Below, piece after piece: positions 43,963-64,000 of a stretch of DNA of 64,000 bases. Under the pieces are notes generated by a model. That model saw only the letters and a list, made by a program, of their open reading frames with translations, did not search any database and had not been told where the DNA came from. Every line of letters starts with the position of its first letter. Position 1 is the stretch's first letter. The DNA comes from Burkholderiales bacterium (lineage in GTDB: Bacteria > Pseudomonadota > Gammaproteobacteria > Burkholderiales > Burkholderiaceae_D): positions 1 to 64,000 of the forward strand of contig JACQDX010000044.1 in NCBI GenBank assembly GCA_016200895.1, read 5' to 3'. Both the position numbers and the translations under genes were made by a program.

Positions 43963-43969
43963 CAGCGAT

Positions 43970-45394: not shown

Positions 45395-45425
45395 ATTTAA
45401 AAATTAAACAGAAAGCGTATCAGAC

Positions 45426-46676
45426 ATGATGAAACTCATTTCACGCAAACCATTATCCCTGAGCCTGGCTGGCATGATCGCTGTTGGCGCAGGTGGCATC
45501 TGGCTGTCAGCCACATCGAATGCTGCGGATGAACCTGCCAAGACTGCCAGTGCCTCTGCAACTGCGGCCAAGGTCAAGCCAGCCTTGACGGTTACCACGA
45601 CCAAAGCCAGTAGCGGCAATCTCGTCATCAAGCTGGCCGCCAACGGCAGCGTCGCAGCCTGGCAAGAAGCCTTGATAGGCTCAGAAGCAACCGGCCTGCG
45701 CATACAGGAGTTGCATGCCAATATAGGAGATGTGGTGCAGCGTGGCCAGTTACTGGTCAGCTTCGCCAGTGAAACCGTGAAAGCCGATCTGGCGCTGGCA
45801 CAAGCCAGCCTGGCTGAGGCGCAGGCCAATCTGGCTGATGCCGTCGCCAATGCCGAGCGCACCCGCGCCCTGCAAACCAGCGGTGCACTGAGTGCCCAGC
45901 AAGTCGGCCAATACCTGACGGCAGAACAAACCGCGAAAGCAAGGGTTGAATCGGCCAAGGCAAGTGTAGAAGCGCAGCAATTACGCATGCGCCATACCCG
46001 CGTTCTTGCACCCGATAGTGGCATCATCAGCGCACGTGCAGCTACCCTGGGTTCGGTCGTCGGTAATGGCGCAGAATTGTTCCGCATGATACGTCAAGGG
46101 CGCCTGGAGTGGCGTGCTGAAGTGACAGCCAGTGAAATGGCGAAAATAATGCCAGGTATTGAAGCCATTGTTACTGCACCAGGTGGCACGCAATGGAAGG
46201 GCAAGGTCAGGGTAGTATCACCGACGGTAGATGCACAAACCAGGATGGGTTTGGTGTATGTTGATCTGGTGCCAGATACAACTATTACGACTACTGCAAG
46301 CGGTACCAAACCACAAGCAGCCACGGCCTCTCTGGCATTCAAGCCGGGCATGTACGCCAAGGGTGAATTTATGATGGGTAGCTCACAAGCCTTGACCATA
46401 CCGCAGCAGGCCGTGGTGGTCAGGGATGGTTTCAGCTATGCCTTCCGCCTTAATGCTGATGGTCGCGTGACTCAAATCAAAGTGCAGACTGGCCGCCGCG
46501 TATCCAGTGCGCAAGGCGACCTGGTGGAAGTGGTTTCTGGTTTGAATGCAGACAGCACCATCGTTTCCAGCGGTGCAGGCTTCCTCAATGATGGCGATAC
46601 GGTAAAAGTTGTGACAGCAACCAAGCCAGCCAATGCTGCTGCCAGCGCAGCCACAGTAGCTGCTGCAAAAAATTAA
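45426..46676 (+). CDS. RND efflux periplasmic adaptor (membrane fusion protein)
   Basis: 416 residues with an N-terminal signal or anchor segment (about 10-32), a lipoyl-like barrel split around an alpha-helical hairpin (about 110-190; LALAQASLAEAQANLADAVANAE), a beta-barrel domain and a membrane-proximal domain ending in an Ala-rich tail. Bridges the inner-membrane pump and the outer channel. No lipobox is obvious. Co-oriented, 31 bases after the channel gene and 9 before the pump gene. Confidence 0.92.
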   Translation: MMKLISRKPLSLSLAGMIAVGAGGIWLSATSNAADEPAKTASASATAAKVKPALTVTTTKASSGNLVIKLAANGSVAAWQEALIGSEATGLRIQELHANIGDVVQRGQLLVSFASETVKADLALAQASLAEAQANLADAVANAERTRALQTSGALSAQQVGQYLTAEQTAKARVESAKASVEAQQLRMRHTRVLAPDSGIISARAATLGSVVGNGAELFRMIRQGRLEWRAEVTASEMAKIMPGIEAIVTAPGGTQWKGKVRVVSPTVDAQTRMGLVYVDLVPDTTITTTASGTKPQAATASLAFKPGMYAKGEFMMGSSQALTIPQQAVVVRDGFSYAFRLNADGRVTQIKVQTGRRVSSAQGDLVEVVSGLNADSTIVSSGAGFLNDGDTVKVVTATKPANAAASAATVAAAKN

Positions 46677-46685
46677 GGGGTTCAT

Positions 46686-49600: not shown

Positions 49601-49832
49601 TGCCATGGGCGCAGGCATGATGCCTTTGGCGCTGGGTTGGGGAGCTGACCCCAGCTTCCGTTCGCCAATGGCGATTGCGGTCATCGGCGGTTTGATTACT
49701 TCAACTTTGTTGAGCCTGTTGGTGGTGCCAGCCGTGTTCACCTATATTGATGACTTTGAGCATTTGCTCGGGAAAATCAGACGCAAATTGTCTGGTAAAT
49801 CTGCAAACCAGCTTACAACGGATGCTCATTAA
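46686..49832 (+). CDS. RND multidrug efflux pump, HAE1/AcrB-type
   Basis: Inner-membrane proton-driven transporter, 1048 residues with two repeats of six membrane helices and large periplasmic loops. The proton-relay aspartates in TM4 are present (LSLALVVGVLVDDAIVEIENIARH). The start is GTG 46686, following AAGGGG; an ATG two bases earlier is in another frame and hits a stop at once. A full-length HAE1-like protein. Substrate cannot be told from sequence. A strong terminator follows. Confidence 0.94.
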   Translation: MNFSSLSIKNPIPAIMLFILLTLAGILSFRSTIVQDFPDIELPIVTVSAPLSGAAPAQLETEVARKIEDAVASLQGVKNVYTKVLDGDVEVTVEFVLEKVISDAVNEVRDAVATVRADLPSEMRDPTVTKASTAGRVIMTYTVEAAEDGKDSKVVAGESSKPDAQELSWFVDNTVAKRLRAVPGVGAVRRMGGVSREVRVELDTSKMAALNVAAVDVSRRLKLVQQEAPGGRGDVSGAEQSVRTIATVKTAAELAVLDIPLPDGRHIRLDQVARVLDTVSEPRSVATLDGKAVVGFEVFRTKGASEVDVAQGSHAAVDELQAAHPNMKFHQAIDNAQPVEENFDGSMDLLYEGALLAILVVWWFLRDWRATLVAAAALPLSVIPTFLGLKYFGYTLNTVTLLSLALVVGVLVDDAIVEIENIARHLHMGKTPMQAAMEAADEIGMAVIATTFALVAVFLPTAFMGGVPGLFFKQFGWTAVIAILASLVVARLLTPMMAAYIMKSPKPGKAGVHGQKDGWIMTHYMKTMQWCLHHRLITMIAATIFFFSSIGLVFLLPTGFVPSADRAQTQVNIELPPGSTLAETRIVAEQARVAIMKNKEIINVFSSIGGGSSGDAFAPGAAAEARRAVLTVTAVHRNKRKDSIADIDAKIRAEVADISGARFNVGPPDTGVKMQLVLQSEDPLALLEAAQKVERELRTLKGVGNVSSSASLVRPEIIVRPDSARAADLGVTASAIGETVRVATAGDYDQALPKLNLSQRQVPIRVKLPDSFRADLAEIERLTVPGKNGPVMLGSVASVTMESGPAQIDRLNRKRNVTLDVELGNRQLGEVNEEARALPSMKNLPPSVSIAELGDAQEMQALFASFGIAIMIGVLCIYGVLVLLFKDFLQPVTILAALPLSIGGAFVALLVTGRALSMPSMIGLIMLMGIVTKNSILLVDYAVLAREAGMTRFDALVDACHKRSRPIIMTTIAMGAGMMPLALGWGADPSFRSPMAIAVIGGLITSTLLSLLVVPAVFTYIDDFEHLLGKIRRKLSGKSANQLTTDAH

Positions 49833-50171: not shown

Positions 50172-50909
50172 ATGCGTGTTAATGGCGTTCGTTTCTCAAT
50201 TGACAATTATGCTGCCTGGTCTCCTGGCGTCGCAAGCATGGACGCGTGGAAGGAATGGGCAATATCGCCATTTCCCCTGACTGGTGATGCTGAGCCTGGT
50301 GTTGCCGCAATGCCAGCAATGTTGCGCAGACGTGCCGGTTTTCTAGGAAAAATGGCACTGGAAGTTGCATATCAGTGCCTGAATGGGCAGACTAATGTTC
50401 CCACGGTATTTTGTTCACGCCATGGCGAGGTGGCGCGTGCTGTCGATTTATTGACAGAGTTGATGCAGGATGCATCAGTATCGCCGACTGGCTTTGGTCT
50501 GGCTGTACACAATGCCAGCGCAGGTTTGTTTTCTATTGCGCGCAAGGATCAGGCCAACCATATTGCCCTGGCTGGTGGGAAAAGCACAGTAGAACATGGT
50601 GTTATTGAAGCATGTGGTTTATTGGCAGATGGTGCCCCTATGGTGATGCTGGTGGCTTATGATAACGCTTTACCATCTGTTTTTGCATCATTTCAGGATT
50701 GTGATGAACAGCCTTATGCCTGGGCCTGGTTGATGGTGCCAGCGCGGGAAGATGCCACTCATCTGAAATGGGATGAAGTTGAAGCACAAGAATTAAACAC
50801 CAATGATATATCTGGGGGGCTGGAGGTTTTGCGTTTTCAAATCGGAGAACAAGCTCAGATGCAGCGTATATCAGGTAAGCGGCGCTGGCTGTGGTCGCGT
50901 CATGGTTGA
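50172..50909 (+). CDS. Ketosynthase-like chain length factor (polyene cluster)
   Basis: 245 residues of the short beta-ketoacyl synthase N-terminal-like type (ketoacyl-synt_2) found at the head of aryl polyene clusters. The VFCSRHGEV strand resembles ketosynthases, but at the position of the nucleophile elbow the sequence is VHNASAGLFSIA (112-123), with no catalytic cysteine. It should therefore act as a partner that sets chain length with a true ketosynthase such as the one at 62831. It overlaps the next gene by eight bases. Confidence 0.85.
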   Translation: MRVNGVRFSIDNYAAWSPGVASMDAWKEWAISPFPLTGDAEPGVAAMPAMLRRRAGFLGKMALEVAYQCLNGQTNVPTVFCSRHGEVARAVDLLTELMQDASVSPTGFGLAVHNASAGLFSIARKDQANHIALAGGKSTVEHGVIEACGLLADGAPMVMLVAYDNALPSVFASFQDCDEQPYAWAWLMVPAREDATHLKWDEVEAQELNTNDISGGLEVLRFQIGEQAQMQRISGKRRWLWSRHG

Positions 50910-51675
50910 AAAACTTGATCGTTGCTGGCGAGTCTTGGCAACAGGTATCAGTTTTCTGACTTTTGGCATAGGCGGCTTGTTGTTGCGGGTGCTGGTGTTT
51001 CCGGCCTTGTACCTGCTGGTATGGCGACAGGAAAAACATACCAAGGCAGCGCGCCACATCATACGCCTGACATTTCGTGGCTTTGTTGGCTTGATGCGAT
51101 TGCTTGGTGTATTGCGGTATGAGATCACGGGCCTCGACAGGCTGGAGCGTGGTGGCTTGCTGATATTGGCAAATCATCCTACCCTGATTGATACCGTTTT
51201 TTTGATGGCTTTTGTAAAAAATGCAGATTGCATCGTCAAAAGCCATTTATGGAATAACCCGTTTACCCGTGGTCCGGTAAGAGCAGCTGCTTATATCAGT
51301 AACGAGCAGGGCACAGAATTACTGGAAGCCTGTATAGCGTCTTTGCAGGCAGGCAATAATCTGATCGTGTTTCCGGAAGGGACGCGTACTCCTGCTGATG
51401 GCACCATTTGCATGAAGCGCGGTGCAGCCAATATTGCTGTACGCGGTGTCTGTGCAATAACACCGGTGGTGATACGTTGTGACCCGCCAACTTTGGGCAA
51501 GGGTGAAAAGTGGTGGCATGTGCCAGAACGTTTTGCGCAGTTCAAAATAGAAGTGAAAGAAGATATTCCGATTCAGCATTTTATTGGTGATGGCAAGTCG
51601 GATGTCATGGCAGCCCGTCATTTGACGGAGCATCTGCAGCATTATTTTACCGAGGAAAATCAACGTCATGCTTGA
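50902..51675 (+). CDS. Lysophospholipid acyltransferase, PlsC type (polyene cluster)
   Basis: 257 residues from ATG 50902 (MVEKLDRCWRVLATG). An N-terminal membrane segment (about 12-42), the catalytic HPTLID (HX4D, 92-97) and the acyl-acceptor motif FPEGTR (157-162) identify a PlsC-like 1-acylglycerol-phosphate acyltransferase. In this setting it probably esterifies the polyene or builds its lipid anchor, and is not expected to be the housekeeping PlsC. The ATG overlaps the preceding stop; the next gene (ACP) also overlaps by eight bases. Confidence 0.88.
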   Translation: MVEKLDRCWRVLATGISFLTFGIGGLLLRVLVFPALYLLVWRQEKHTKAARHIIRLTFRGFVGLMRLLGVLRYEITGLDRLERGGLLILANHPTLIDTVFLMAFVKNADCIVKSHLWNNPFTRGPVRAAAYISNEQGTELLEACIASLQAGNNLIVFPEGTRTPADGTICMKRGAANIAVRGVCAITPVVIRCDPPTLGKGEKWWHVPERFAQFKIEVKEDIPIQHFIGDGKSDVMAARHLTEHLQHYFTEENQRHA

Positions 51676-51922
51676 GCAAGAAGTAAAAGAACTGATCATC
51701 GAAGTGTTGCAACTGGAAGATATCACGGCTGCTGACATTGATAGCGATGCGCCCTTGTTTGTTGAAGGCCTGGGTCTGGATTCTATCGATGCACTTGAAC
51801 TGGGTGTGGCCTTGCAAAAGCGCTATGGTATTTCTTTGTCAGCTGATTCCGAAGATACGCGTCGCCATTTTGCATCGGTGAACGCATTGGCTGCATTAAT
51901 TGCTGCAAATAGAAAGAAGTAA
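51668..51922 (+). CDS. Acyl carrier protein 1 (polyene cluster)
   Basis: 84 residues, acidic, with the phosphopantetheine attachment motif LGLDSIDALEL (Ser39). It is distinct from the fatty-acid ACP and paired with a second ACP directly downstream, as in aryl polyene systems where one ACP carries the starter and the other the growing chain. Overlaps the acyltransferase end by eight bases. Confidence 0.92.
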   Translation: MLEQEVKELIIEVLQLEDITAADIDSDAPLFVEGLGLDSIDALELGVALQKRYGISLSADSEDTRRHFASVNALAALIAANRKK

Positions 51923-51932
51923 GGAGTCTGTA

Positions 51933-52205
51933 ATGGTAGTGGTAAGTGAAATGAGCAGAGACGAGCTCTATGTTTGGGTGGTGGACCTGCTGGCCGAAAT
52001 GTTTGAGCTGGATAAATCAGCGTTGACAATGGAATCCAACCTGTACGCAGATCTGGATATCGACAGCATTGATGCGGTCGATCTGGCAGTCAAGCTCAAA
52101 CAAATGACAGGCATGCGCTTGCAACCCGAAGTATTTAAAAAGATACGCACCATTGGTGACGTGATTGATGCCCTGCTCAATCTGCAGGCGGAGCAGTCAA
52201 CATAG
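51933..52205 (+). CDS. Acyl carrier protein 2 (polyene cluster)
   Basis: 90 residues from ATG 51933, which has AAGGAG six bases upstream. The 4'-phosphopantetheine site is DLDIDSIDAVDL (Ser45). A longer in-frame reading from 51900 would overlap ACP 1 and lacks a ribosome site. It is only weakly similar to ACP 1, so the two are probably specialised rather than recent duplicates. Confidence 0.92.
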   Translation: MVVVSEMSRDELYVWVVDLLAEMFELDKSALTMESNLYADLDIDSIDAVDLAVKLKQMTGMRLQPEVFKKIRTIGDVIDALLNLQAEQST

Positions 52206-52756
52206 TTCGCGCAATCCTGACCGTTGTTGCGGTCATACTCACGGTGCTTTATCCACTCGTCATCTGGTTTGGCCAGGGGCAGGTAGAACCACGCTGGTTG
52301 GCAGTCTTATTGCTATTGGCAGCGGCAACCAGATTGCCAACTTTCAAGGTCAGCCAGGTAGCGCGCTGGTCCATGCTCTGTGCCTTGCTACTGGCTGGCT
52401 GTGCTGTGTGGGCCAACGCACTGTTGCCCCTTAAGTTGTATCCGGTATTGGTGAATGGCGTATTGCTGGCTGTTTTTTCTTACAGTCTGGCGGTGCCACC
52501 ATCCATGGTGGAGCGATTTGCACGCCTGCGAGAGCCTGAATTGCCTGATGTCGCAATCGCCTACACACGCCGTGTGACGCAAGTCTGGTGCGTATTTTTC
52601 GTCATCAACGGGACTATCGCTTTTGCCACGGCAATGTGGGCTTCACCAGCAGTCTGGTCGCTGTATACCGGTGTCATCGCCTATATCCTCATGGGTATGT
52701 TATTCGCTATTGAATACCTGGTGCGCCTGCGATTTAAACGAATTCATCATGTCTGA
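52202..52756 (+). CDS. COG4648-like membrane protein (polyene cluster)
   Basis: A hydrophobic protein with about five membrane segments, of the type consistently found beside the ACPs in aryl polyene clusters; function unknown. The first canonical start, GTG 52244, has no ribosome site and cuts into the first membrane helix. The frame is open upstream through VRAILTVVAVILTV, and ATA at 52202 sits eight bases after GGAG, overlapping the ACP 2 stop. I therefore propose an AUA start (184 residues); from GTG it is 170. The end overlaps the next gene by eight bases. Confidence 0.75.
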   Translation: MVRAILTVVAVILTVLYPLVIWFGQGQVEPRWLAVLLLLAAATRLPTFKVSQVARWSMLCALLLAGCAVWANALLPLKLYPVLVNGVLLAVFSYSLAVPPSMVERFARLREPELPDVAIAYTRRVTQVWCVFFVINGTIAFATAMWASPAVWSLYTGVIAYILMGMLFAIEYLVRLRFKRIHHV

Positions 52757-54482
52757 TTTTTCTCCCGATCCTTGCCTTGCGCTGGCAGCTCGTCCCGGCC
52801 ACGCCATCATAGGCTGGAATGCCACTGGCGTAGTATTGCATAGCGATTTCTTGCAACGTATAGGCGCATGGAACACTGCGATCCGCAATACGCCAGGAAC
52901 ACAACTGGCCCTGTATCTCGAAGACAGTCTTGAATTCTCTGCCGCCTTGCTGGCAGCCTGGCTGGAAAACAAAACTGTCTGGCTGACAGCCGATACCTTG
53001 CCTGCCACATGTCTTGCGTTGTCCAAATCTGTGGATGCGTTTTTTGGTGAGTTCCCTCAAGAATATCAGCCGGTAAAAGCAGCGGTCACAGCTGCGCCTG
53101 TAATATTGAAAGCGCTTGACCCCGATTTTACTGGCCTGGTCGTGCACACTTCAGGCAGTACCGGGCAGCCGCAGGCGATACCTAAAAAACTCTCGCAACT
53201 GATGAGCGAAGTCGGCAGCCTGGAGCAAGTATTTGGCCAGCGTCTCGGCGATGCTGAGATTGTCACTACTGTATCTCATCAACATATTTATGGCTTGCTG
53301 TTCAAGGTCTTGTGGCCTTTGTCGGCAGGGCGTGCCATTCATGCCTTGAGCGTGAACTTTCCTGAACAACTGGCGCAAGTATTGGCACAGTGCAATTGCG
53401 CCCTGATTGCCAGTCCCGCTCACCTGAAACGACTGCCAGAATACCTGGACTGGCAGGCAGGCAAGCAAAGATTGCGCGCCATTTTTTCATCTGGTGGCCC
53501 ACTGGCTGCAGAGACTGCATATACCGTCGGCGATATGCTAGGGCACGTCCCCTTCGAAGTTTACGGCAGTTCTGAAACCGGCGGCATCGCCTGGCGCCAG
53601 CGCCAGGCGGGTGCAATCGAAAGCTGGGAGGCTTTGCCAAAAGTCGATTTGCGCATAGTAGAAGAAGATTTGCTGGAAGTGCGTTCGCCACACCTGGGCC
53701 AAACAGACTGGTTGCGTATGGCAGACAAGGCTCAACTGACAGGCAATGGTCGTCTACTATTGCAGGGGCGTAGTGACCGCATCGTCAAAATCGAAGAAAA
53801 ACGTATTTCACTGGATGCCATCGAGCAGACTTTATTGGCCTCTGATCTGGTCAGTGAAGCCAGAGTGATCGCGGATCATGAAGTGCCTGGGCAAAGACAA
53901 AAACTGTCCGCCTTTATTGTAACGACTGAACAAGGCCGTCAACTGCTGGGCCTTGAAGGGAAGAGGGCATTCAATCTGCGTATGCGTGCAATATTGAGCG
54001 GGCTGGTAGAGGCGATTGCCTTGCCACGTCGCTGGCGTTATCTGGAGCAAATGCCAGTCAATGCACAGGGCAAGACTACACTCGCACAACTGCATGCCTT
54101 GCTGGATGATGTGAGTGATCCGCGCCCACGTTTGCCACAAATACGTCTGCTGGAACGAGCGCCAGAGAAAGTCTTGTTTGAGCTGATCGTACCAGCGACA
54201 TTATTTTATTTTGATGGACATTTTTCGGTGGCACCTGTGCTGCCTGGCGTGGTGCAACTAGATTGGGTGATCAAATATGGCCGCCAGTATTTTGCATTGC
54301 CGCCCATATTCAAGTCCGTTCATGCACTCAAATTCCAGCATGTGATACATCCTGAAGTACCAGTCATGCTTGAGCTCCTATATGACGTAGTAAAAGACAG
54401 TCTGCAATTCCGTTATTTTTCTGAGGCCGGGCAACATGCCGGTGGTCGTATTATTTTCGCTAATGAAAAGCCCGCATGCTAG
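52749..54482 (+). CDS. Acyl-activating enzyme fused to hotdog dehydratase (polyene cluster)
   Basis: 577 residues from ATG 52749. Residues 1-460 are an AMP-forming ligase: P-loop HTSGSTGQPQ (133-142), EVYGSSETGGIAWR, and the hinge DRIVKIEEKRISL. From about 470 there is a FabZ/ApeI-like hotdog domain with FDGHFSVAPVLPGVVQLDW, the catalytic His region. The ligase would load an aryl starter (for example a hydroxycinnamate) onto an ACP, and the dehydratase would make double bonds. The fusion is typical of aryl polyene clusters. Overlaps the methyltransferase by seven bases. Confidence 0.87.
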   Translation: MSDFSPDPCLALAARPGHAIIGWNATGVVLHSDFLQRIGAWNTAIRNTPGTQLALYLEDSLEFSAALLAAWLENKTVWLTADTLPATCLALSKSVDAFFGEFPQEYQPVKAAVTAAPVILKALDPDFTGLVVHTSGSTGQPQAIPKKLSQLMSEVGSLEQVFGQRLGDAEIVTTVSHQHIYGLLFKVLWPLSAGRAIHALSVNFPEQLAQVLAQCNCALIASPAHLKRLPEYLDWQAGKQRLRAIFSSGGPLAAETAYTVGDMLGHVPFEVYGSSETGGIAWRQRQAGAIESWEALPKVDLRIVEEDLLEVRSPHLGQTDWLRMADKAQLTGNGRLLLQGRSDRIVKIEEKRISLDAIEQTLLASDLVSEARVIADHEVPGQRQKLSAFIVTTEQGRQLLGLEGKRAFNLRMRAILSGLVEAIALPRRWRYLEQMPVNAQGKTTLAQLHALLDDVSDPRPRLPQIRLLERAPEKVLFELIVPATLFYFDGHFSVAPVLPGVVQLDWVIKYGRQYFALPPIFKSVHALKFQHVIHPEVPVMLELLYDVVKDSLQFRYFSEAGQHAGGRIIFANEKPAC

Positions 54483-55555
54483 ATAAGAAATTTTCTCCAG
54501 AACGCCAATCCGCTTTTGCCGCGCGTTTTGAAGCGCAAAAAATTGCCTTTGGTCCCGTCGTTTTCCAATGCGTACGTTATGCCTGGAAGCGCGGCATGTT
54601 ACAGACGCTTGCCGACGCCGGAGGAACAGGGCTGACGATTGCAGACATGGCAGCCACAGGTAAATGGACTGAATATGCATTGAAGGTGGTGCTGGAAACC
54701 TGCCTTTCATCTGGCGTGGTGTATCTGAGCGCTGGTTCTTATGTACTGGACAAGGCGGGTTATTGTGTACTGACTGATTCCATCACCCAGGTCAATCTCG
54801 ATTTCAATCATGATGTCTGTTACGAAGGTTTGTTCAAGCTTGATGAGTCGCTGGATAATGAAAAACCTCTGGGTTTGAGTGCCTTGGGTAACTGGCCTAC
54901 CCTGTATCAGGGTTTGTCGCAATTGCCAGAACCGGCAAAAACCAGCTGGTTTGCTTTTGACCATCATTATTCTGATACTTCTTTCCCCAGCATTTTGCCG
55001 GATGTATTTGCCACAGCACCACGCAAGCTGATGGACATTGGTGCCAACACTGGCAAATTCAGTTGTGCTGCACTGGCTTACAATCCTGCGGTAGAAATGC
55101 ATCTGGTGGATTTGCCACGGCAATTGTCAGTCGCTGAAGAAAATTTGAAAAATGCCGGTGTGCATGAACGCGCCCATTTTCACTCCATTGATTTGCTGGA
55201 CAATGAAGCTGCCTTGCCTGCAGGCATGGACTTGATCTGGATGAGCCAGTTCCTCAGTTGTTTTTCAGAGCCTGCCATTGCCAGTATCTTGCAACGTGCT
55301 GCCAAAGCGCTGGCCCCCAATGGGCAATTGCTGATCATGGATACTTTCTGGGACAGGCAGCGTTACGATATCGCCGCTTTTTGTCTCATCAATACTTCAC
55401 CTTATTTCACAGCCATGGCCAGTGGTAACAGCAAGATTTATGAAAGCGGTGACTATGTGCGCCTGGCAGGAGCCGCTGGCTTGCACTTGATCACGACCCG
55501 CGACGATATCGGCTATTGCCATTCCCTGCTGCGTTTTTCGAGGGTGGAGAAGTAA
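54476..55555 (+). CDS. SAM-dependent methyltransferase (polyene cluster)
   Basis: 359 residues. An N-terminal helical, winged-helix-like region (about 20-110; FQCVRYAWKRGMLQTLADAGG, TIADMAATGKWTEYALKVVLETCLSSGVV) resembles the dimerisation domain of plant-type O-methyltransferases. The Rossmann SAM site is KLMDIGANTGKFSC (about 184-197), followed by LVDLPRQL. A likely job is O- or C-methylation of the aromatic head group, as in methylated aryl polyenes. ATGCTAG overlaps the stop of the ligase gene. Confidence 0.85.
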   Translation: MLDKKFSPERQSAFAARFEAQKIAFGPVVFQCVRYAWKRGMLQTLADAGGTGLTIADMAATGKWTEYALKVVLETCLSSGVVYLSAGSYVLDKAGYCVLTDSITQVNLDFNHDVCYEGLFKLDESLDNEKPLGLSALGNWPTLYQGLSQLPEPAKTSWFAFDHHYSDTSFPSILPDVFATAPRKLMDIGANTGKFSCAALAYNPAVEMHLVDLPRQLSVAEENLKNAGVHERAHFHSIDLLDNEAALPAGMDLIWMSQFLSCFSEPAIASILQRAAKALAPNGQLLIMDTFWDRQRYDIAAFCLINTSPYFTAMASGNSKIYESGDYVRLAGAAGLHLITTRDDIGYCHSLLRFSRVEK

Positions 55556-55556
55556 A

Positions 55557-56315
55557 GTGTTCAAGCCCTGCGTCCTCATTCCCGTGTATAACCATGAACA
55601 TGCGATAGCTGCCGTAGTGCAGGCTATGCTGACGCATGAGGTGGATTGTGTGCTGGTGGATGATGGCAGCTCGGCTGCCTGTGCGCAGGTATTGCACGAT
55701 TTGCAGGCCGCAACACCAGGTCGAGTGACTTTGCTGCGTCACGATATCAATCAGGGCAAGGGCGCAGCCGTGCTGACAGGTTTTCGCTATGCAGCGCAAG
55801 CTACATATACCCATCTCTTGCAGATTGATGCAGATGGCCAGCATTGCGTAGCCGATGTGCCGCAATTCCTGGCGCAGGCAAAGGCACACCCGCAGGCGGT
55901 GATTGCCGGTTACCCGGTCTATGATGAATCAGTGCCTGCCATACGCCTGTATGCCCGTTACCTGACCCATGTCTGGGTATGGATTAATACCTTGTCGCTG
56001 GCCATACGTGATTCCATGTGCGGCTTCCGGGTCTATCCTGTGGATGCCGTGATCGCGTTGATGGCCAGGCAGGACATAGGCAGGCGCATGAATTTTGACA
56101 CTGATATCCTGGTCAGGTTGTACTGGGATGGCGCGGCTGTAATCAACCTGCCAACCCGTGTTGCTTATCCCACGGACGGTGTTTCTCATTTCCGCGTCTG
56201 GCGTGACAATGCACTGATTACCGTCATGCATACCAAGTTATTCTTTGGCATGTTGTTGCGCATTCCTACTCTGCTGGCACGTCACTGGCGTAGCCAGCCT
56301 GAGGTGGGGAAATGA
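55557..56315 (+). CDS. GT2-family glycosyltransferase (polyene cluster)
   Basis: 252 residues with a GT-A fold: CVLIPVYNHEHAI at the start, VLVDDGSS, and the metal/nucleotide motif DADGQ at 91-95. There is a possible membrane-associated segment near 215-235. GT2 enzymes of this kind in polyene clusters probably add a sugar or transfer a sugar phosphate to the lipid anchor. The start codon is GTG, one base after the methyltransferase stop. Overlaps the next gene by four bases. Confidence 0.87.
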   Translation: MFKPCVLIPVYNHEHAIAAVVQAMLTHEVDCVLVDDGSSAACAQVLHDLQAATPGRVTLLRHDINQGKGAAVLTGFRYAAQATYTHLLQIDADGQHCVADVPQFLAQAKAHPQAVIAGYPVYDESVPAIRLYARYLTHVWVWINTLSLAIRDSMCGFRVYPVDAVIALMARQDIGRRMNFDTDILVRLYWDGAAVINLPTRVAYPTDGVSHFRVWRDNALITVMHTKLFFGMLLRIPTLLARHWRSQPEVGK

Positions 56316-57277
56316 AACAGCATACACAACATACAGGCCCTGCCTGGCATTGGGCCAGCATCAATGAAGTCAGCTTTGTGGCTGGTATGCGCTTTCTGTT
56401 CTGGGTATTCAAGGTCTGTGGACGCTGGCCATTCCGCATATTCTTGTATCCGGTACTGGCCTGGTATGTCCTCACCAAGCCAGTACCGCGCCGTGCATCA
56501 ATGGCTTACCTGCAACGCATGAGCGGCTATACCAAAGTCGCTCAGGGTTGGGCTGGTGTGTTGCATCATTTTGCCGCCTTTGCAGAAAACATACTCGACA
56601 AGATGTTGTTATGGGGTGGCTTGTTTGACGAGACCAAGGTCAAGTATATAGGGCAAGAGGAAATGCATGTTCAAGTCGCCCAAAAACGTGGTGGACTGAT
56701 CGTATGTTCTCATCTGGGTAACCTGGAAATGTGCCGCGTACTGTCGCGCCGTTTTCCAGACGTGAAATTGACAGTGCTGGTGCATACCAAGCATGCCCGG
56801 GCATTTAACCGCATGCTGGCCAGGCTTGATCCTGACAGCCAGATGAATTTATTGCAGGTGACAGAAATGACACCCGCCACGGCCATGCTATTGGCAGACA
56901 AAATTGCTGAAGGTGGTTTTGTCGTGATTGCTGGTGACCGTATCCCGGTAGCGCCGCAACCCAGGGTGACGGCGGCCCCTTTTCTTGGGCAGGATGCAGC
57001 GTTCCCAGTTGGCCCTTATGTGCTGGCCAGTGTATTGCAATGCCCGGTCTATTTGCTGTTTTCCTTGCAAATGGATGGTGTGCCGCAAGTCTGCTTTGAA
57101 CTCTTGCGTGAGACTATCAGGTTGCCACGCAAAGGGCGTGATGAAGCCTTACGCTGTGTAACCGCTGAGTATGCCGCCCGCCTCGAATATTACGCAGTGC
57201 GGGCACCGCTGCAATGGTTTAATTTTTATGATTTTTGGCATTTACCCGAATTGGAAAAACAAGATGCAATCCGCTGA
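56312..57277 (+). CDS. LpxL/HtrB-like acyltransferase (polyene cluster)
   Basis: 321 residues of the lysophospholipid/lipid A acyltransferase family. One N-terminal membrane segment (about 25-60) is followed by the catalytic SHLGNLE (HX4E, about 133-139) and a late GDRIPV region. It probably transfers the polyene acyl chain to a glycolipid acceptor and is distinct from the PlsC-type enzyme at 50902. ATGA overlap with the glycosyltransferase suggests the two act in sequence. Confidence 0.87.
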   Translation: MKQHTQHTGPAWHWASINEVSFVAGMRFLFWVFKVCGRWPFRIFLYPVLAWYVLTKPVPRRASMAYLQRMSGYTKVAQGWAGVLHHFAAFAENILDKMLLWGGLFDETKVKYIGQEEMHVQVAQKRGGLIVCSHLGNLEMCRVLSRRFPDVKLTVLVHTKHARAFNRMLARLDPDSQMNLLQVTEMTPATAMLLADKIAEGGFVVIAGDRIPVAPQPRVTAAPFLGQDAAFPVGPYVLASVLQCPVYLLFSLQMDGVPQVCFELLRETIRLPRKGRDEALRCVTAEYAARLEYYAVRAPLQWFNFYDFWHLPELEKQDAIR

Positions 57278-58820
57278 TCAGAGCACCAAGCTGCGCACCG
57301 TACAATTCGACCGTAACAGATTGAGCATAGAAGATATCGTCGATATCGCCCATGGCCGCGCCAATGCGGCGCTGTCTGCTTCCCCTGAGTTTCGTGCAGC
57401 GATAGCCCGTGGTGCAGATTTTTTGGATCGCCTGTTGCGTGAAGATGGCACTATTTATGGCGTCACGACTGGCTATGGTGATTCCTGTACTGTCACCGTA
57501 CCGCCAGCCCTGGTGGCAGAATTGCCGCACCATTTGTATACCTATCACGGTTGTGGCCTGGGTGAATATCTTTCACCGGCGCAAACCCGTGCTGTCATGG
57601 CTACACGTCTGGCATCTTTGTCCAAAGGATTTTCTGGCGTTAGTGTAGAGCTGCTGGAACAGATCTGCCGTTTGCTGGATGCTGGCCTTTTGCCACTGAT
57701 ACCCAGCGAAGGCTCTGTCGGTGCCAGTGGTGACCTGACGCCTTTATCTTATCTGGCCGCAGTCTTGTGTGGCGAGCGTGAAGTCTGGCGCGATGGCGTG
57801 CAAATACCAGCTGCACAGGCGCTACGTGAAGCGGGAATCACACCTTTACGCTTGCGCCCGAAAGAGGGCCTGGCCATCATGAATGGTACGGCTGTCATGA
57901 CTGCACTGGCCTGCATGGCCTATGACCGTGCTGATTACCTCGTCAGGCTGACCACGCGTATTACAGCGATGGCATCTGTGACGCTGGACGGCAATGCTCA
58001 CCATTTTGATGAAGTATTGTTTTCAGTGAAACCGCATCCAGGCATGCAGGATGTGGCAGCATGGTTGCGCCAGGATTTGCCAGTCGGGCAAGCTGAACGC
58101 AATGGCAAACGCCTGCAAGACCGTTATTCGATACGCTGCGCCCCGCACGTGATAGGTGTGCTGGCCGATGCCATGCCTTTCTTCCGTCAATCCATAGAAA
58201 ATGAATTGAACAGCGCCAACGATAATCCGATTATCGACGGCGACAATGAACGCGTACTTCATGGCGGCCATTTCTACGGAGGCCATATCGCCTTCGTCAT
58301 GGATGGCATGAAGAATGCTGTCGCCAATCTGGCAGATTTGCTGGACAGGCAAATGGCATTGATGGTCGATAGTCGTTATAACCACGGTTTGCCCGCCAAT
58401 CTGTCTGGCATGGAAGGGCCGCGTGCGGCAATCAATCATGGCTTGAAAGCCCTGCAAATCAGTGCTTCAGCCTGGACAGCAGAAGCATTGAAGCTGACCA
58501 TGCCTGCCTCGGTCTTTTCACGATCCACCGAATGCCATAACCAGGACAAGGTCAGCATGGGTACCATCGCTGCCCGCGATTGCCTGCGTGTGCTGGAGTT
58601 GACAGAACAGGTAGTGGCAGCCTTGCTTATCACAGTAAGGCAGGGCATATGGCTGCGTTCACGCGTGAATCAGGATTTGCAATTGTCGCCAGCGTTGACG
58701 CAGATGATGGATGCACTGGCGAGTGATATAGCTGCAGTGCAGGAAGATCGCCGCCTGGAGCCTGACCTGCGCCTGATGCTGGAGCGTATCCGCCAGCAAG
58801 AATGGAAGCTCTATGCGTAA
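57264..58820 (+). CDS. MIO-type aromatic amino acid ammonia-lyase (HAL/PAL/TAL family)
   Basis: 518 residues. The Ala-Ser-Gly triad that cyclises to the MIO cofactor is at 154-156 (GSVGASGDLTPLSYLAA). The catalytic Tyr is in TIYGVTTGYGD (Tyr65). At the selectivity site the sequence is YTYHGCGLG, giving Tyr94-His95, unlike His-Leu of Rhodobacter TAL or Ser-His of histidine ammonia-lyase. In this cluster a tyrosine or phenylalanine lyase making a cinnamate starter is most likely. The start is ATG 57264; it overlaps the upstream gene by 14 bases. No other Hut genes are near. Confidence 0.87.
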   Translation: MQSADQSTKLRTVQFDRNRLSIEDIVDIAHGRANAALSASPEFRAAIARGADFLDRLLREDGTIYGVTTGYGDSCTVTVPPALVAELPHHLYTYHGCGLGEYLSPAQTRAVMATRLASLSKGFSGVSVELLEQICRLLDAGLLPLIPSEGSVGASGDLTPLSYLAAVLCGEREVWRDGVQIPAAQALREAGITPLRLRPKEGLAIMNGTAVMTALACMAYDRADYLVRLTTRITAMASVTLDGNAHHFDEVLFSVKPHPGMQDVAAWLRQDLPVGQAERNGKRLQDRYSIRCAPHVIGVLADAMPFFRQSIENELNSANDNPIIDGDNERVLHGGHFYGGHIAFVMDGMKNAVANLADLLDRQMALMVDSRYNHGLPANLSGMEGPRAAINHGLKALQISASAWTAEALKLTMPASVFSRSTECHNQDKVSMGTIAARDCLRVLELTEQVVAALLITVRQGIWLRSRVNQDLQLSPALTQMMDALASDIAAVQEDRRLEPDLRLMLERIRQQEWKLYA

Positions 58821-59247
58821 AAAAAATGCGCCCAGCCCATGGGCTGCTGAAGTCGAGATGCAAGTCCAGTTCTTTGACCTTGATCCTATGGAAATCGTCT
58901 GGCATGGCAACTACGTCAAATATCTGGAAATAGCGCGCTGTGCCTTGCTGGATCATATCAATTACAACTACGTGCAGATGAAAGAGTCCGGCTACGCCTG
59001 GCCTGTCATCGACATGCAGTTGCGCTATATCGCTCCCGCCAGTTTTGGCCAGAAACTGACCCTGCGCGCCGAGATTGTCGAATGGGAAAACCGTTTGAAG
59101 ATAGATTACCTGATCACCGACACCGCCACAGGAAAGCGCCTGAACCGCGCCAGCACGACCCAGGTTGCCGTTGAAATCGCCAATGGAGAAATGTGCTTTG
59201 TTTCTCCTGCCATCTTGTTTGAAAAACTGGGAGTGCCTGTTCCATGA
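58813..59247 (+). CDS. Acyl-CoA/ACP thioesterase, 4HBT family (polyene cluster)
   Basis: 144 residues. Hotdog fold with the 4HBT/YbgC active-site stretch FFDLDPMEIVWHGNYVKYLEIAR (Asp22/Asp24, His31). It probably releases polyene chains or removes stalled products. Overlaps the lyase by eight bases and the LolA-like gene by four. Confidence 0.88.
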   Translation: MRKKNAPSPWAAEVEMQVQFFDLDPMEIVWHGNYVKYLEIARCALLDHINYNYVQMKESGYAWPVIDMQLRYIAPASFGQKLTLRAEIVEWENRLKIDYLITDTATGKRLNRASTTQVAVEIANGEMCFVSPAILFEKLGVPVP

Positions 59248-59873
59248 TGCCCACGAAGCGTTTGCTATCCATTATCTGCATGCTGTTGCTGGGCCTTTCA
59301 TGGGCGGATGTCAGTAATGCCGCTGCACCTATCAACAAAATCCAGAACATGCTTGCCAAGCCGCCAGTGCTGTGCGGCAGGTTTGACCAGACCAAGCAAT
59401 TGCAGGGCATGAAAAAGCCACTGGCATCCAATGGCCGTTTTTGTGTCGTTAATGGCAAGGGCATCTTGTGGCGCACTCTGCAACCATTCCCCAACACCTT
59501 GCGTCTGACACGTGATGAGATTGTGCATCTGCAAGGTGAGCGCGTAGCAATGCGCCTGGATGCACAAAAAGAACCTACGGTACGCATGATCAATAGCGTG
59601 CTGTTTTCTTTGCTGTCTGGTGACCTGGGCAAGCTGGAAACTCTGTTTGAAGTCGAAGGCAGCGCCGATGCCACTAGCTGGAAGGTGGCCCTCAAAGCTC
59701 GTGAAGCAGCACTGGCAAAAGCGATAGGTGCAATCTCGCTGGATGGTGCAGCCTACGTAAAAAATATCCATATCGACGAAGCCAGTGGCGACCGTACCAC
59801 TATCATTTTTTCAGATATCAAAACTGGTGAAACGGCCATGACGGCGGAAGAACTCGCCTTGTTTGCTCAATAA
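59244..59873 (+). CDS. LolA-like periplasmic lipid carrier (polyene cluster)
   Basis: 209 residues with a clear signal peptide (RLLSIICMLLLGLSWADVSNA, cleavage near residue 26). The mature part has the LolA-type outer-membrane lipoprotein carrier fold pattern: GRFDQTKQLQGMKKPLASNGRF, KGILWRTLQPFPNTLRLT. It should bind a hydrophobic cargo in a half-open barrel. Next to an MMPL exporter it is probably dedicated to carrying the polyene lipid across the periplasm, distinct from housekeeping LolA. Confidence 0.85.
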   Translation: MMPTKRLLSIICMLLLGLSWADVSNAAAPINKIQNMLAKPPVLCGRFDQTKQLQGMKKPLASNGRFCVVNGKGILWRTLQPFPNTLRLTRDEIVHLQGERVAMRLDAQKEPTVRMINSVLFSLLSGDLGKLETLFEVEGSADATSWKVALKAREAALAKAIGAISLDGAAYVKNIHIDEASGDRTTIIFSDIKTGETAMTAEELALFAQ

Positions 59874-59888
59874 GGGAAAAGCAAACTC

Positions 59889-62279
59889 ATGAGGGACGGT
59901 ATGAAAAAACAGCATGGATGGACTAAAGGGCTGGCAATTACATGGGCAATCGTGGTTTGCCTGTTGCTGGCTCATCATGCCTATTTGTGGCTGGGCAAGC
60001 GTATCGCGCCTGATACCGATATCCTGGCCTTGCTGCCTGTACAGGAGAGAGACCCGGTCTTGCAGCAATCCTTCGCCCACATGGTGGACACTGCCCAGCA
60101 AAGGCTAGTGGTACTGATCGGTGCGAATGACTGGGAACAGGCCAAACATGCCGCCTCTGCTTATCAAAAAGTGCTGGCAACTCGCAGCGATTTGCTGACA
60201 GCCACCAATATCAGCGACCAGGCCCAGAATGATTGGCTGGCGGTATTCCAAAAGCAAAGCCTGGGTTTGCTGACAGCACAACAAGAACAGCAATTGCGTA
60301 CAGAACCGGCGCAATACTGGACTGATCTGGCACTGGCAAAAATGTATAGCGCATTTTCTGGCCCCAAACTAGGCAGCTTTCAGGATGACCCTTTTAACCT
60401 GTTTTCTGGCTGGGTACAGGAACGAGCACAAGAAACACCGGTGCGCCCACGCGAAGGTTATCTGTTCGTGGCAGACAGAGAAAAACAATATGTACTGTTG
60501 CCCCTGAATCTAAAGCCATCGGCATTTTCCCTGACTGCGCAAGAGGCAGTTGTGCCTTTGCTGGGCAAGGCAGCCGAAGCAGCTTTGCTGGCAACGCCTT
60601 CGGTAGAAATCATCAGCGCAGGTGTTGTCCTGCATGCAGCCGCAGCCGGGCAGCAGGCTGGCGGCGAAGTATCGACGATAGGCTTGGGCTCACTGATTGG
60701 CATTATCTTGCTGATGTGGCTGAGTTTCCGTTCCCTGAAACCCATCACTTTGATTTTGCTTTCCATAGGCGTAGGGTTTCTTGGTGCCTTGTCAGTGTGC
60801 TGGATGCTGTTTGGCGGCATACATTTGCTGACCCTGGTATTTGGTGCCAGCCTGATCGGTGTGGCGCAGGATTATGGTATTTATTTTCTGTGCAATCGCC
60901 TGAGTGCTGACGCCAGTATTGATTCGCCCACTTTATTGAAACGCTTGCTACCAGGCCTGTGCCTGACTTTGCTGGCAGCAGTCATTGGTTATCTGGGTCT
61001 GGGGCTGACGCCTTTCCCTGGCTTGCGCCATATGGCAGTATTTTCTGCACTGGGCCTGGTGTTTGCATGGCTCACTGTGATTTGCTGGTTTCCGCAACTG
61101 ATCAGTGCTGGCAGCCTGAGAAGTGGCAAGCTGGTTGCGCGTTATTCGGCAGCCCTCATGCATTGGCCACGCCTGGGAATGAATCCGCGCAGCTTGCTAG
61201 TATTGGCTATTTTTGCGATAGGCACAGCGATAGGTTGTTCGCGCCTGGGTGCCAATGATGATATTCGCCTGCTGCAGAACTCCCCCAAGCATCTGATTGC
61301 TGATCAGATCAAACTGGGCAAATTGCTGGATGCGCCAACGCCAGTCCAGTATTTCCTGGTGCGTGGTGGCAGCGCAGAAATCGTTTTGCAACGTGAAGAA
61401 GCCCTGAAGCGCAAACTTGATTCTCTGATAGAACGTCATACCATCTCCGGCTATCAGGCTTTGTCAAACTGGATACCGTCTGCACAATTACAAAAACAGC
61501 GCCATCAGCTGATAGATGAAAAACTCTTGGCAGAAGGAGGGGCTTTGAGTCTATTGGCCAGCAAGGTGGAAGAAGATGCTGTCTGGGCTGCTGCCATACG
61601 CAAGCATTTGCTGACGCTTACAGCCAGCACTTCTATCGATGAGTTTTTGAAGACCTCAGCAGGTGAACCGTGGCGACATCTATGGTTGAGAAAAATCGGC
61701 AATGAATATGCTAGCATCGTCGCCTTGCGCGGTCTCAGTTATGCCAATAATGGCCTGGCGACTTTGCAGCAGACAGGGCAGGGGCTGGAAGGTGTCCAAT
61801 GGGTAGATAAAGTCAACGAGATATCCTCGGTGCTGGGGCGCTATCGTGTCTATATGGGCTGGGTAGTGTCCGCTGCTTATCTGGTGGTATTTGCCTTGTT
61901 ATTTCCGCGTTACCGCCGCAATGCCTGGCGCGTGCTGGCACCTACCTTGTGTGCCAGCCTGGTGACTCTGGGTTTGCTGGGTCTGGCGGGGCAAAGCCTG
62001 CAGTTATTCCACGTCCTGGCGCTGATGTTATTGCTGGGTGTGGGTGTTGATTACGGTATCTTCATGCAAGAGCATCCTGACAGGCGCAATGCCACGCCCT
62101 GGCTGGCAGTTGGTTTATCGGCTGCCAATACCTTGCTGTCTTTCGGTTTATTGGGATTGAGCCGCACCCCGGCATTGCAGGCCTTTGGTTTGACGATGCT
62201 GATAGGAACCGCGCTGGTGTGGTTGATTGTTCCCTGTTTTACTTCTACTACAGAAAGTGCGCATGTCGCTCAAGCTTAA
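59889..62279 (+). CDS. MMPL/RND-superfamily exporter (polyene cluster)
   Basis: 796 residues with one N-terminal helix (about 14-33), a periplasmic domain, five helices (about 260-440), a second periplasmic domain and five more helices (about 645-785). GAQDYGI/GVDYGIF-like motifs (VAQDYGIYFL, GVGVDYGIFMQE) carry the aspartates expected to couple to protons. Related predicted exporters accompany xanthomonadin and aryl polyene clusters. Likely extracts the polyene lipid from the inner membrane for the LolA-like carrier. ATG 59889 is used; ATG 59901, after GAGGGA, is possible. Confidence 0.88.
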   Translation: MRDGMKKQHGWTKGLAITWAIVVCLLLAHHAYLWLGKRIAPDTDILALLPVQERDPVLQQSFAHMVDTAQQRLVVLIGANDWEQAKHAASAYQKVLATRSDLLTATNISDQAQNDWLAVFQKQSLGLLTAQQEQQLRTEPAQYWTDLALAKMYSAFSGPKLGSFQDDPFNLFSGWVQERAQETPVRPREGYLFVADREKQYVLLPLNLKPSAFSLTAQEAVVPLLGKAAEAALLATPSVEIISAGVVLHAAAAGQQAGGEVSTIGLGSLIGIILLMWLSFRSLKPITLILLSIGVGFLGALSVCWMLFGGIHLLTLVFGASLIGVAQDYGIYFLCNRLSADASIDSPTLLKRLLPGLCLTLLAAVIGYLGLGLTPFPGLRHMAVFSALGLVFAWLTVICWFPQLISAGSLRSGKLVARYSAALMHWPRLGMNPRSLLVLAIFAIGTAIGCSRLGANDDIRLLQNSPKHLIADQIKLGKLLDAPTPVQYFLVRGGSAEIVLQREEALKRKLDSLIERHTISGYQALSNWIPSAQLQKQRHQLIDEKLLAEGGALSLLASKVEEDAVWAAAIRKHLLTLTASTSIDEFLKTSAGEPWRHLWLRKIGNEYASIVALRGLSYANNGLATLQQTGQGLEGVQWVDKVNEISSVLGRYRVYMGWVVSAAYLVVFALLFPRYRRNAWRVLAPTLCASLVTLGLLGLAGQSLQLFHVLALMLLLGVGVDYGIFMQEHPDRRNATPWLAVGLSAANTLLSFGLLGLSRTPALQAFGLTMLIGTALVWLIVPCFTSTTESAHVAQA

Positions 62280-62814
62280 ATCATGGCTCATGTTGGTCAC
62301 TACAGCTGCGCTGCTGAGTGCTTGCGCCAGCAAACCTGTGCAACCAGAAGCGCGCCTGGGCCTGATGCTGGCCCCTGCTGCGCTGGATGCTTCTTTCAGT
62401 GTGCAGCAGCATTTGATCGTGGAAAGAAATGGTCGCATAGACGAACTGGATGCCGCGCTGGAAGTTGAACCTGCTCATCTCGAACTGGTGGGACTGGCTT
62501 TTGGGCAGCGCGTCCTGAGCCTCAGTTATGATGGCAAGCAGTTAAAGTCCTGGCGACATGTCATGCTGCCTGCACAGGTCAGGGCAGAAGACGTGCTGGA
62601 AGACATGCAACTCAGCCTGTGGCCAGTGAATGCCATTGCCCAGGCTTTGCCTGCAGGCTGGCGAATTGAAGAGCAGGGTTTGCATCGTTCGCTTTATCTT
62701 GATGACAAACTTGTCGTCACCATTGACTACAGTAGCATGCCACGCTGGAGCGGAATGGTTGTGTTGAATAATTTGCGTTACCACTATCGCCTGACCATAC
62801 AGTCAGCACCTTGA
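62263..62814 (+). CDS. DUF3261 lipoprotein (polyene cluster)
   Basis: 183 residues from ATG 62263, overlapping the exporter end by 17 bases. It has a lipoprotein signal (LVTTAALLSAC, Cys21; the next residue Ala argues for outer-membrane sorting) followed by a beta-rich domain. DUF3261 proteins are a fixed component of aryl polyene clusters. An outer-membrane receiver for the LolA-like carrier, analogous to LolB, is an attractive inference but not shown. Confidence 0.82.
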   Translation: MSLKLKSWLMLVTTAALLSACASKPVQPEARLGLMLAPAALDASFSVQQHLIVERNGRIDELDAALEVEPAHLELVGLAFGQRVLSLSYDGKQLKSWRHVMLPAQVRAEDVLEDMQLSLWPVNAIAQALPAGWRIEEQGLHRSLYLDDKLVVTIDYSSMPRWSGMVVLNNLRYHYRLTIQSAP

Positions 62815-62830
62815 ACACCTTGATATCATT

Positions 62831-64000
62831 ATGAAGCTGTATTTACATTACTGCGGCATCGTCTGCGCATTAGGCGACAATCATCAGGACATCCTGCGCC
62901 GTTTGCTGGATGAGGCTGGGAGTGGCGTCTTGCCTACTGATGCCTGGTCAAGTGGACGCACATTGCCCTTGGGGCAAGTCACCAGTACATTGCCGGATAT
63001 CAGCGCCATGCCGCTAAGCATGCGCAGCCGCAATAACCAGTTGGCACTGGCAGCACTGACACAGATACGGCCAGCACTGGATGCTGCCATAGCACGCTTT
63101 GGCGCAGACCGTATTGGCATTGTGATAGGCACCAGTACCTCAGGCATCGCCAGTACCGAAGCTGCCTTGCGCCAATTCAGCGCTGATGCTTCACTGCCTG
63201 CAGAGTTTCATTATGGCCAGCAAGAGATGGCTTCACCTGCTGATTTCCTGGCCCATGTTGCGGGTATCACTGGTCCTGCCTATGTGCATTCCAGTGCCTG
63301 TTCTTCCAGCGCCAAGGCCATGGCCAGCGCTGCGCGCCTGATCAAAATGGGGCTTTGCGATGTTGTCCTGACAGGTGGTGTCGATACGCTATGCGCTTTT
63401 ACCGTAGCTGGATTTTCAGCACTTGAATCAGTCAGTGACAGCCTGTGCAACCCCTTGAGTGCCAATCGTCACGGTATCAATATCGGTGAGGGCGCAGCCC
63501 TGTTCCTGATGAGTGCTGAAGCTGATAGCGCAAGTTCTGGCGTGGCTTTGTGTGGCTGGGGTGAGTCGTCCGACGGCCATCATATGTCGGCACCTGATCC
63601 TGCAGGTGGCGGTGCACGCCTGGCGATTAGCCAAGCTTTGCAACGTGCCGGTATTTCTGCTTCGGACATCGATTACATCAATCTGCATGGCACGGCCACC
63701 CCGCAAAATGATGCGATGGAATCACGCGTAGTTCATGATTTGTTTGGCGATGCTGTGCCAGTCAGTTCCACCAAGCCATTTACCGGACATACATTGGGTG
63801 CCGCTGCTGCGGTAGAAGCCGCATTGTGCTGGTTGACGATGCAGAGTGATAATGTGCAAGGCAGATTGCCCCCCCATTTGTGGGATGCTGTCGCCGACCC
63901 GCAATTGCCAGCACTGAATGTGGTTGCCCATGGACAGCAACTGGGCCGGCCAATACGTTATGCACTGAGCAATTCCTTTGCATTTGGCGGTTCCAATGCG
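62831..64000 (+). CDS. Beta-ketoacyl-ACP synthase (polyene cluster), 3' end cut by window
   Basis: 390 codons are visible and the frame is still open at 64000. All catalytic residues are present: Cys157 in HSSACSSSAKAM, His286 in NLHGTATPQND and His320 in KPFTGHTLGAAAA. The last visible residues are the FGGSNA motif, so only about 15-20 residues should be missing. This is the active condensing enzyme that could pair with the cysteine-less partner at 50172. The ATG follows the DUF3261 stop by sixteen bases. Confidence 0.92.
   Translation, partial: MKLYLHYCGIVCALGDNHQDILRRLLDEAGSGVLPTDAWSSGRTLPLGQVTSTLPDISAMPLSMRSRNNQLALAALTQIRPALDAAIARFGADRIGIVIGTSTSGIASTEAALRQFSADASLPAEFHYGQQEMASPADFLAHVAGITGPAYVHSSACSSSAKAMASAARLIKMGLCDVVLTGGVDTLCAFTVAGFSALESVSDSLCNPLSANRHGINIGEGAALFLMSAEADSASSGVALCGWGESSDGHHMSAPDPAGGGARLAISQALQRAGISASDIDYINLHGTATPQNDAMESRVVHDLFGDAVPVSSTKPFTGHTLGAAAAVEAALCWLTMQSDNVQGRLPPHLWDAVADPQLPALNVVAHGQQLGRPIRYALSNSFAFGGSNA

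Follow-up and report, generated by a model that had tools for sequence, protein, structure and literature searches.

We analysed a 64,000-nucleotide stretch of Burkholderiales DNA, called the window below, which represents bases 1-64000 of the 69411-base contig JACQDX010000044.1 in a 5.9 Mb genome of 93.8% completeness. From position 50172 onwards the window, together with the bases following it on the contig, very probably holds a complete gene cluster for an aryl polyene (APE) lipid, one that belongs to the APE family of proteobacteria. Because the ammonia-lyase encoded in this cluster finds its closest named relative in Undibacterium pigrum DSM 19792 (97%), among the best 80 of 249 relatives of a genome-collection search, the host would be an Undibacterium near U. 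pigrum; by their titles, these relatives are Oxalobacteraceae or other Burkholderiales. No literature joining Undibacterium with aryl polyene was found. The cluster appears to be ordinary and complete, a well-formed Undibacterium member of a known system and no new system, and the new detail is the distinct active-site signature of the APE lyase clade.

Fifteen genes, all open and on the + strand, occupy positions 50172-64000, the last one, apeO, ending at 64024. Of the 14 junctions, nine are overlaps (4, 4, 7, 8, 8, 8, 8, 14 and 17 bases) and five are gaps (1, 10, 15, 16 and 38 bases), in agreement with the initial annotation, which had described 15 co-directional genes, most of them overlapping by 4-17 bases. 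The roles of the E. coli CFT073 apeA-R genes and the corresponding mutant data are published (PMC8253772), and 17 of the 22 translated genes here match this cluster with 27-63% identity. The two clusters are colinear (C-D-E-F-G-H-I-J-K-L-M-N-O-P-Q-R), only the methyltransferase and the lyase being out of line here. The five genes without a CFT073 match are an upstream resistance-nodulation-division (RND) pump, the lyase, two small genes and a phosphopantetheinyl transferase (PPTase). ApeH and ApeI are separate in CFT073 but fused here, and the single ApeJ protein of CFT073 corresponds here to two genes, a glycosyltransferase (GT2) and an LpxL-like acyltransferase. The methyltransferase (ApeB) precedes ApeC in CFT073, whereas it lies here between the ligase and the GT2 gene. 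Finally, CFT073 carries the ApeA lipoprotein, without a lyase match and without an in-cluster PPTase, while lyase and PPTase are both present here. The same order was found on the Pseudoalteromonas shioyasakiensis megaplasmid CP076682, in which an annotated aromatic amino acid ammonia-lyase (62%) lies between acyltransferase and thioesterase; that cluster has a halogenase-like flavin adenine dinucleotide (FAD) gene between ApeM and ApeN, no methyltransferase match, and separate ligase and dehydratase genes. APE Vf (BGC0000837) from Aliivibrio fischeri ES114, the cluster named as the APE reference, counts ammonia lyase among its characteristic genes, a resemblance taken from its published description (PMC8719888, PMC5851621).

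The enzymes of chain formation were identified as follows. Two consecutive free acyl carrier proteins (ACPs) and an aryl-ACP ligase are present, as expected of APE clusters: ApeE (51668..51922; PF00550; 63% to CFT073 ApeE), with its serine in GLDSIDA, ApeF (51933..52205; PF00550; 45% to CFT073 ApeF), with DIDSIDA, and the ApeH-ApeI fusion (52749..54482), a predicted ligase (PF00501) joined to an ApeI-like dehydratase (PF22818, 46.6 bits over the cut-off of 28.5). The top NCBIfam model of the fusion is a 4-coumarate-CoA ligase (108 of 334.7 bits), and the top solved match of its C-terminal part is 6qsr_A, an APE dehydratase. ApeC (50172..50909; PF13723, 225 bits; 28% to CFT073 ApeC) is the predicted chain-length-factor partner of a ketosynthase, and 7f28_A and 6qsp_B are its sole solved matches, chains of both ApeO-ApeC structures. 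Of these, 6QSP is the X. doucetiae pair and 7F28 that of A. baumannii, and an ApeR structure is reported there too (PMC8358021). The initial annotation had called this partner cysteine-less; this needs correcting, since ApeC holds four cysteines, but HNASAG, which is no cysteine motif, occupies the active-site position. The ApeO ketosynthase (62831..64000, continuing to 64024) carries Cys-His-His motifs and has 6qsp_A as its top solved match (E 2.3e-97). A lack of ketoreductase, dehydratase and ketosynthase partners beyond position 64000 would, by the initial annotation, have refuted its reading, but these partners are found on the same contig and + strand: the end of ApeO, the ApeP dehydratase (64021-64491; PF22817, 68.7 bits over the cut-off of 27), ApeQ, a FabG-like reductase (64494-65219), and ApeR, a FabF/FabB-like ketosynthase (65216-66460), the last two scoring 399.6 bits with TIGR01831 (cut-off 338.85) and 724.6 bits with NF006587 (cut-off 470), respectively. 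The PPTase (67680-68300, + strand) also lies there, beyond the window.

The attachment and transport set, ApeK, ApeL, ApeM, ApeN, ApeG, ApeD and ApeJ, is complete, and each member matches CFT073, ApeJ as two genes. It is composed of ApeD, a PlsC-type lysophospholipid acyltransferase (50902..51675; PF01553; 42% to CFT073 ApeD), the ApeG membrane protein (52244..52756; 51% over 104 aa to CFT073 ApeG), the GT2 half of ApeJ (55557..56315; PF00535; 54% to one end of CFT073 ApeJ) and its LpxL-like acyltransferase half (56312..57277; PF03279, 24.8 bits with a cut-off of 22.3; 39% to the other end), the ApeK thioesterase (58813..59247; PF13279; 52% to CFT073 ApeK), ApeL, a LolA-like periplasmic carrier (59244..59873; PF19574/PF03548; 27% to CFT073 ApeL), ApeM, an MMPL/RND-type lipid exporter (59889..62279; PF03176; 30% over 787 aa to CFT073 ApeM), and ApeN, a DUF3261 protein (62263..62814; PF11659, 145 bits; 30% to CFT073 ApeN) with a lipobox-like LLSAC near its N-terminus. 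Between ligase and GT2 lies a methyltransferase related to ApeB and FlxJ (54476..55555; 43% over 350 aa to CFT073 ApeB; FlxJ model below cut-off), and between the ApeJ acyltransferase and ApeK a 4-methylideneimidazole-5-one (MIO) ammonia-lyase, probably specific for aromatic amino acids (57264..58820; PF00221, 535 bits), with the ASG triad, QDRYS, NSANDNP and HNQD. The domains named in the initial annotation are thus backed by Pfam throughout, only the gene at 52244 being without a Pfam match and recognised by its likeness to E. coli ApeG. That annotation's reading as a cluster for an aryl polyene lipid, carrying a lyase and an export set of its own, is supported, the genes standing in APE order and ApeO/ApeC, ApeI and ApeP finding APE matches.

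We then compared the loci of the 80 best lyase relatives, in which 17 core genes were sought, the lyase being counted among them and the methyltransferase not; a locus was called complete when ligase, GT2, ApeM and ApeO were all found. Complete loci numbered 73 of 80, each with all 17 core genes, and 72 of the 73 share a single gene order. In the remaining locus, L022, the sequence stops within apeQ, and its apeR match is accordingly a paralogue. The seven incomplete loci comprise five cut by contig ends (L020, L031, L047, L077, L078) and two without a cluster (L063, L080). With all 17 core genes in 73/80 loci, and in one order in 72/73, a chance grouping of these genes is excluded.

The initial annotation had also called the cluster flexirubin-type, which would imply a pigment whose polyene acid is esterified to a dialkylresorcinol. 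The methyltransferase, reductase, LolA-like protein and lyase do match flexirubin models, and the flexirubin cluster (flx) of Chitinophaga pinensis likewise has a lyase and ligase start, a methyltransferase, LolA and an exporter. However, C. pinensis belongs to the Bacteroidota, its product is the dialkylresorcinol ester, and the flx models match the cluster here only below their curated cut-offs (FlxA 315.9 of 700, FlxB 280.9 of 340, FlxJ 450.2 of 560 and LolA2 57.5 of 125 bits), whereas the reductase and both ketosynthases exceed the cut-offs of other models and the gene order is that of APE clusters. Judged by these models and the gene order, with no search made for the dialkylresorcinol genes darA/darB, a flexirubin-type product is very improbable, and that part of the description is not supported. 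Xanthomonadin, another related pigment, starts from 3-hydroxybenzoate made by the chorismatase XanB2. In one paper that names both xanthomonadin and ammonia-lyase, the two terms stand in the reference list only.

The distribution of the lyase was examined in two samples. In the same-family sample (97 genomes), 27 strong DUF3261 matches (E <=1e-20) were taken as APE loci without individual check, and ten weaker rows, one of them from the own genome, were excluded. In 23 of these 27, the same contig carries a lyase no more than 8 kb from DUF3261; the four others are one match less than 1 kb from the contig start (G205) and three without a lyase on the contig (G150, G155, G139). In the phylum sample (120 genomes; DUF3261 threshold E <=0.001), DUF3261 matches were found in 12 genomes, and all 11 foreign loci are APE clusters. 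Six of the 12 loci, the own one counted, hold the lyase, and its slot is invariably the one that separates the ApeJ acyltransferase from ApeK; counting only APE loci from outside the family, six show it there. Since it is absent from six of the 12 phylum-sample loci, the lyase is a common part of APE clusters but is not required of the family. In the literature, ammonia lyase is named as a characteristic APE gene (PMC8719888) and lyase genes in common with the APE cluster of Vibrio fischeri are described (PMC5851621). The initial annotation had expected its combination of a lyase, a methyltransferase and two acyltransferases to give a specific and perhaps undescribed product. The lyase, a methyltransferase of the ApeB type, and ApeD and ApeJ as the acyltransferases are all known parts of APE clusters, and the novelty of the combination was rejected because lyases are frequent in loci of this kind and already published there.

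In order to characterise the lyase, its active-site motifs were read from an alignment that took in 122 of 122 loci. The APE-type set comprises 87 lyases (the own one, the 80 loci and six outside the family, the cluster-less L063 and L080 being counted in) and the comparison set 36; as the alignment holds no characterised Tyr or Phe lyase, the rules of PMC3992019 were used for these. All 87 APE-type lyases have the MIO triad ASG, NSANDNP, QDRYS and HNQD. Their selectivity switch (motive 1) is Tyr-His in 82/87, the own lyase included, and Phe-His in 5/87. Of the comparison lyases, 34/36 have Ser-His and 32/36 have NQED. In a tree of 31 rows, a branch with a support of 100/100 separates the 16 APE-type rows from the others. 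The APE lyases thus make up a single clade whose active-site signature sets it apart; its sister is unsure, because the neighbouring aminomutase row sits on a long branch.

The only MIO lyase of the own genome could be thought to be a histidine ammonia-lyase (HAL), giving an imidazole head group (urocanate) or serving histidine breakdown, as its top NCBIfam models are HALs, though below cut-off (406.6 of 524 and 402 of 539.15 bits). According to PMC3992019, motive 2 carries Gln in Tyr/Phe lyases and Glu in histidine lyases; the own lyase has Gln, as do all 87 APE-type lyases, in line with the former and against the latter. QDRYS and NSANDNP here differ from the QDPY and N(A/G)V(T/S)DNP of most HAL-type rows, and the APE lyases form a separate clade. 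Histidine catabolism is in addition unlikely because no urocanase match was found in the own genome (93.8% complete). The assignment to histidine was rejected as extremely improbable.

The favoured product of the lyase is 4-coumarate or cinnamate. FlxA, the flexirubin lyase, combines a HAL-like motive 1 with a motive 2 like that of tyrosine and phenylalanine ammonia-lyases, and converts Tyr to 4-coumarate and Phe to cinnamate, no product being detected from His (PMC3992019). A search of literature excerpts joining aryl polyene with ammonia lyase found no assay of an APE-type lyase. The lyase likely supplies the starter of the polyene, and a role in the pathway is argued by the 23/27 co-occurrence in the same-family sample and by the overlap of the gene with both its neighbours. 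This is the least sure part of our reading, and several points weigh against it. The Tyr-His switch of the own lyase lacks the His or Phe given for Tyr/Phe lyases (PMC3992019) and also differs from the Ser-His of 34/36 comparison lyases, lyase specificity is stated to be unpredictable from sequence alone (PMC3992019), no lyase model exceeded its cut-off, and the own genome has a UbiC-family gene, which makes a 4-hydroxybenzoate starter possible, as described for E. coli and Xenorhabdus (PMC8253772). An APE cluster starting from UbiC-made 4-hydroxybenzoate as in E. coli, with the lyase acting in another step or providing an alternative starter, is an alternative that we hold less likely. It is favoured by the UbiC-family gene, the lyase-less half of the phylum-sample loci, the reported activation of 4-hydroxybenzoic acid by Xenorhabdus ApeH (PMC8253772) and two Massilia genomes that hold the lyase without the cluster, and it is opposed by the same co-occurrence and overlaps that argue for a pathway role of the lyase. 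The existence of APE clusters with or without a lyase in a fixed slot suggests two aryl-starter routes, from an amino acid or from chorismate.

With an amino-acid-derived starter, the cluster may work as follows; gene content, order, homology and catalytic motifs were observed, and we infer every reaction from characterised relatives. The MIO lyase would deaminate tyrosine (or phenylalanine) to 4-coumarate (or cinnamate), which the ApeH domain would put onto ApeE. ApeO-ApeC, with the help of ApeR, would add malonyl units, each cycle presumably comprising reduction by ApeQ and dehydration by ApeI/ApeP without enoyl reduction, so that a conjugated polyene would result. The ApeB-type enzyme may methylate the ring, ApeK would free the acid, and the GT2, LpxL-like and PlsC-like enzymes would attach it to a lipid anchor. 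For some aryl polyenes, ApeJ is reported to link the polyene to N-acetylglucosamine (PMC8776678). ApeM, ApeL, ApeN and ApeG would carry the product to the outer membrane, the PPTase would prime the ACPs, and the predicted product is a yellow aryl polyene lipid for the outer membrane.

Among the 73 complete loci, 33 have only the methyltransferase, 33 only a FAD-dependent oxygenase, three have both and four neither. The oxygenase shares 52% identity with the CP076682 gene annotated as a tryptophan 7-halogenase, and a probable halogenase next to APE genes has already been published (PMC8776678). The oxygenase gene lies between ApeM and ApeO in 41 of the 42 loci having all three matches. As an example, a halogenase-like FAD gene was seen at L054:14875-16192, and in other loci it occupies the ApeM-ApeN gap. 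The two genes are nearly mutually exclusive in Oxalobacteraceae (Fisher's test 6e-13, but related loci are non-independent). On a FastTree phylogeny built from ApeQ, ApeR and the lyase, a minimum of 9 changes explains the combined label, where 200 shuffles required 29 on average. Position alone cannot force this exclusion, because the methyltransferase sits between ligase and GT2 and the FAD gene between ApeM and ApeO. The pattern points to a head-group tailoring switch inside one bacterial family.

The two cluster-less lyases are intact and belong to Massilia sp. 9I (L063:9589-11794; 82% to the own lyase) and Massilia sp. YIM B02443 (L080:1907-3460; 80%). DUF3261 and ApeC gave no match in either Massilia genome, while both were found in the control, U. 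pigrum. At L063, fragments of the ApeJ acyltransferase and ApeK remain on either side of the lyase. A FastTree phylogeny of lyases does not place the two as sisters, which suggests that the cluster was lost twice in Massilia with the lyase kept. Downstream of the lyase, however, both genomes have PAS/LuxR-like and CoA-transferase genes, neighbours that one shared loss could also have left in common. The dN/dS ratio (nonsynonymous to synonymous substitution rates) between the L063 and L080 lyases is 0.20; two Massilia pairs that carry the cluster gave 0.09 and 0.21. These are only two cases, and the cluster may have been lost recently. A speculative proposal, which we would call unlikely, is that the APE lyases are a separate MIO specificity class, with a Tyr/Phe-His switch and the aromatic-type Gln, that would commit the pathway to an amino-acid-derived, possibly substituted starter over chorismate-derived 4-hydroxybenzoate, and whose product would be used outside the pigment too, so that the lyase outlives cluster loss.

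Directly upstream of the cluster, at 43216-49832, lie genes for a TetR/CecR-type regulator, an outer membrane factor, a membrane fusion protein and an RND pump. This efflux operon was considered as a part of the system and rejected, because the pump adjoins the cluster in only 3/80 loci (L004, L006 and L008, all Undibacterium), in a count whose 10 kb flanks cover just the last part of the pump gene. A promoter scan near the apeC start gave 3 promoter-like sites against 1.3 expected, and a terminator and promoter scan at the far end of the cluster gave nothing decisive. A weak second DUF3261 match in the own genome (L144:5292-5561) has no APE genes around it and is perhaps LolB-like, of another system. 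Between ApeR and the PPTase, two small secreted-looking proteins are encoded on the + strand (66502-66951 and 67063-67644), the first being present in 54/80 and the second in 20/80 loci. A polysaccharide deacetylase gene (68289-69272, - strand) adjoins the PPTase gene, and a putative deacetylase is reported in the C. pinensis flexirubin cluster too (PMC3992019).

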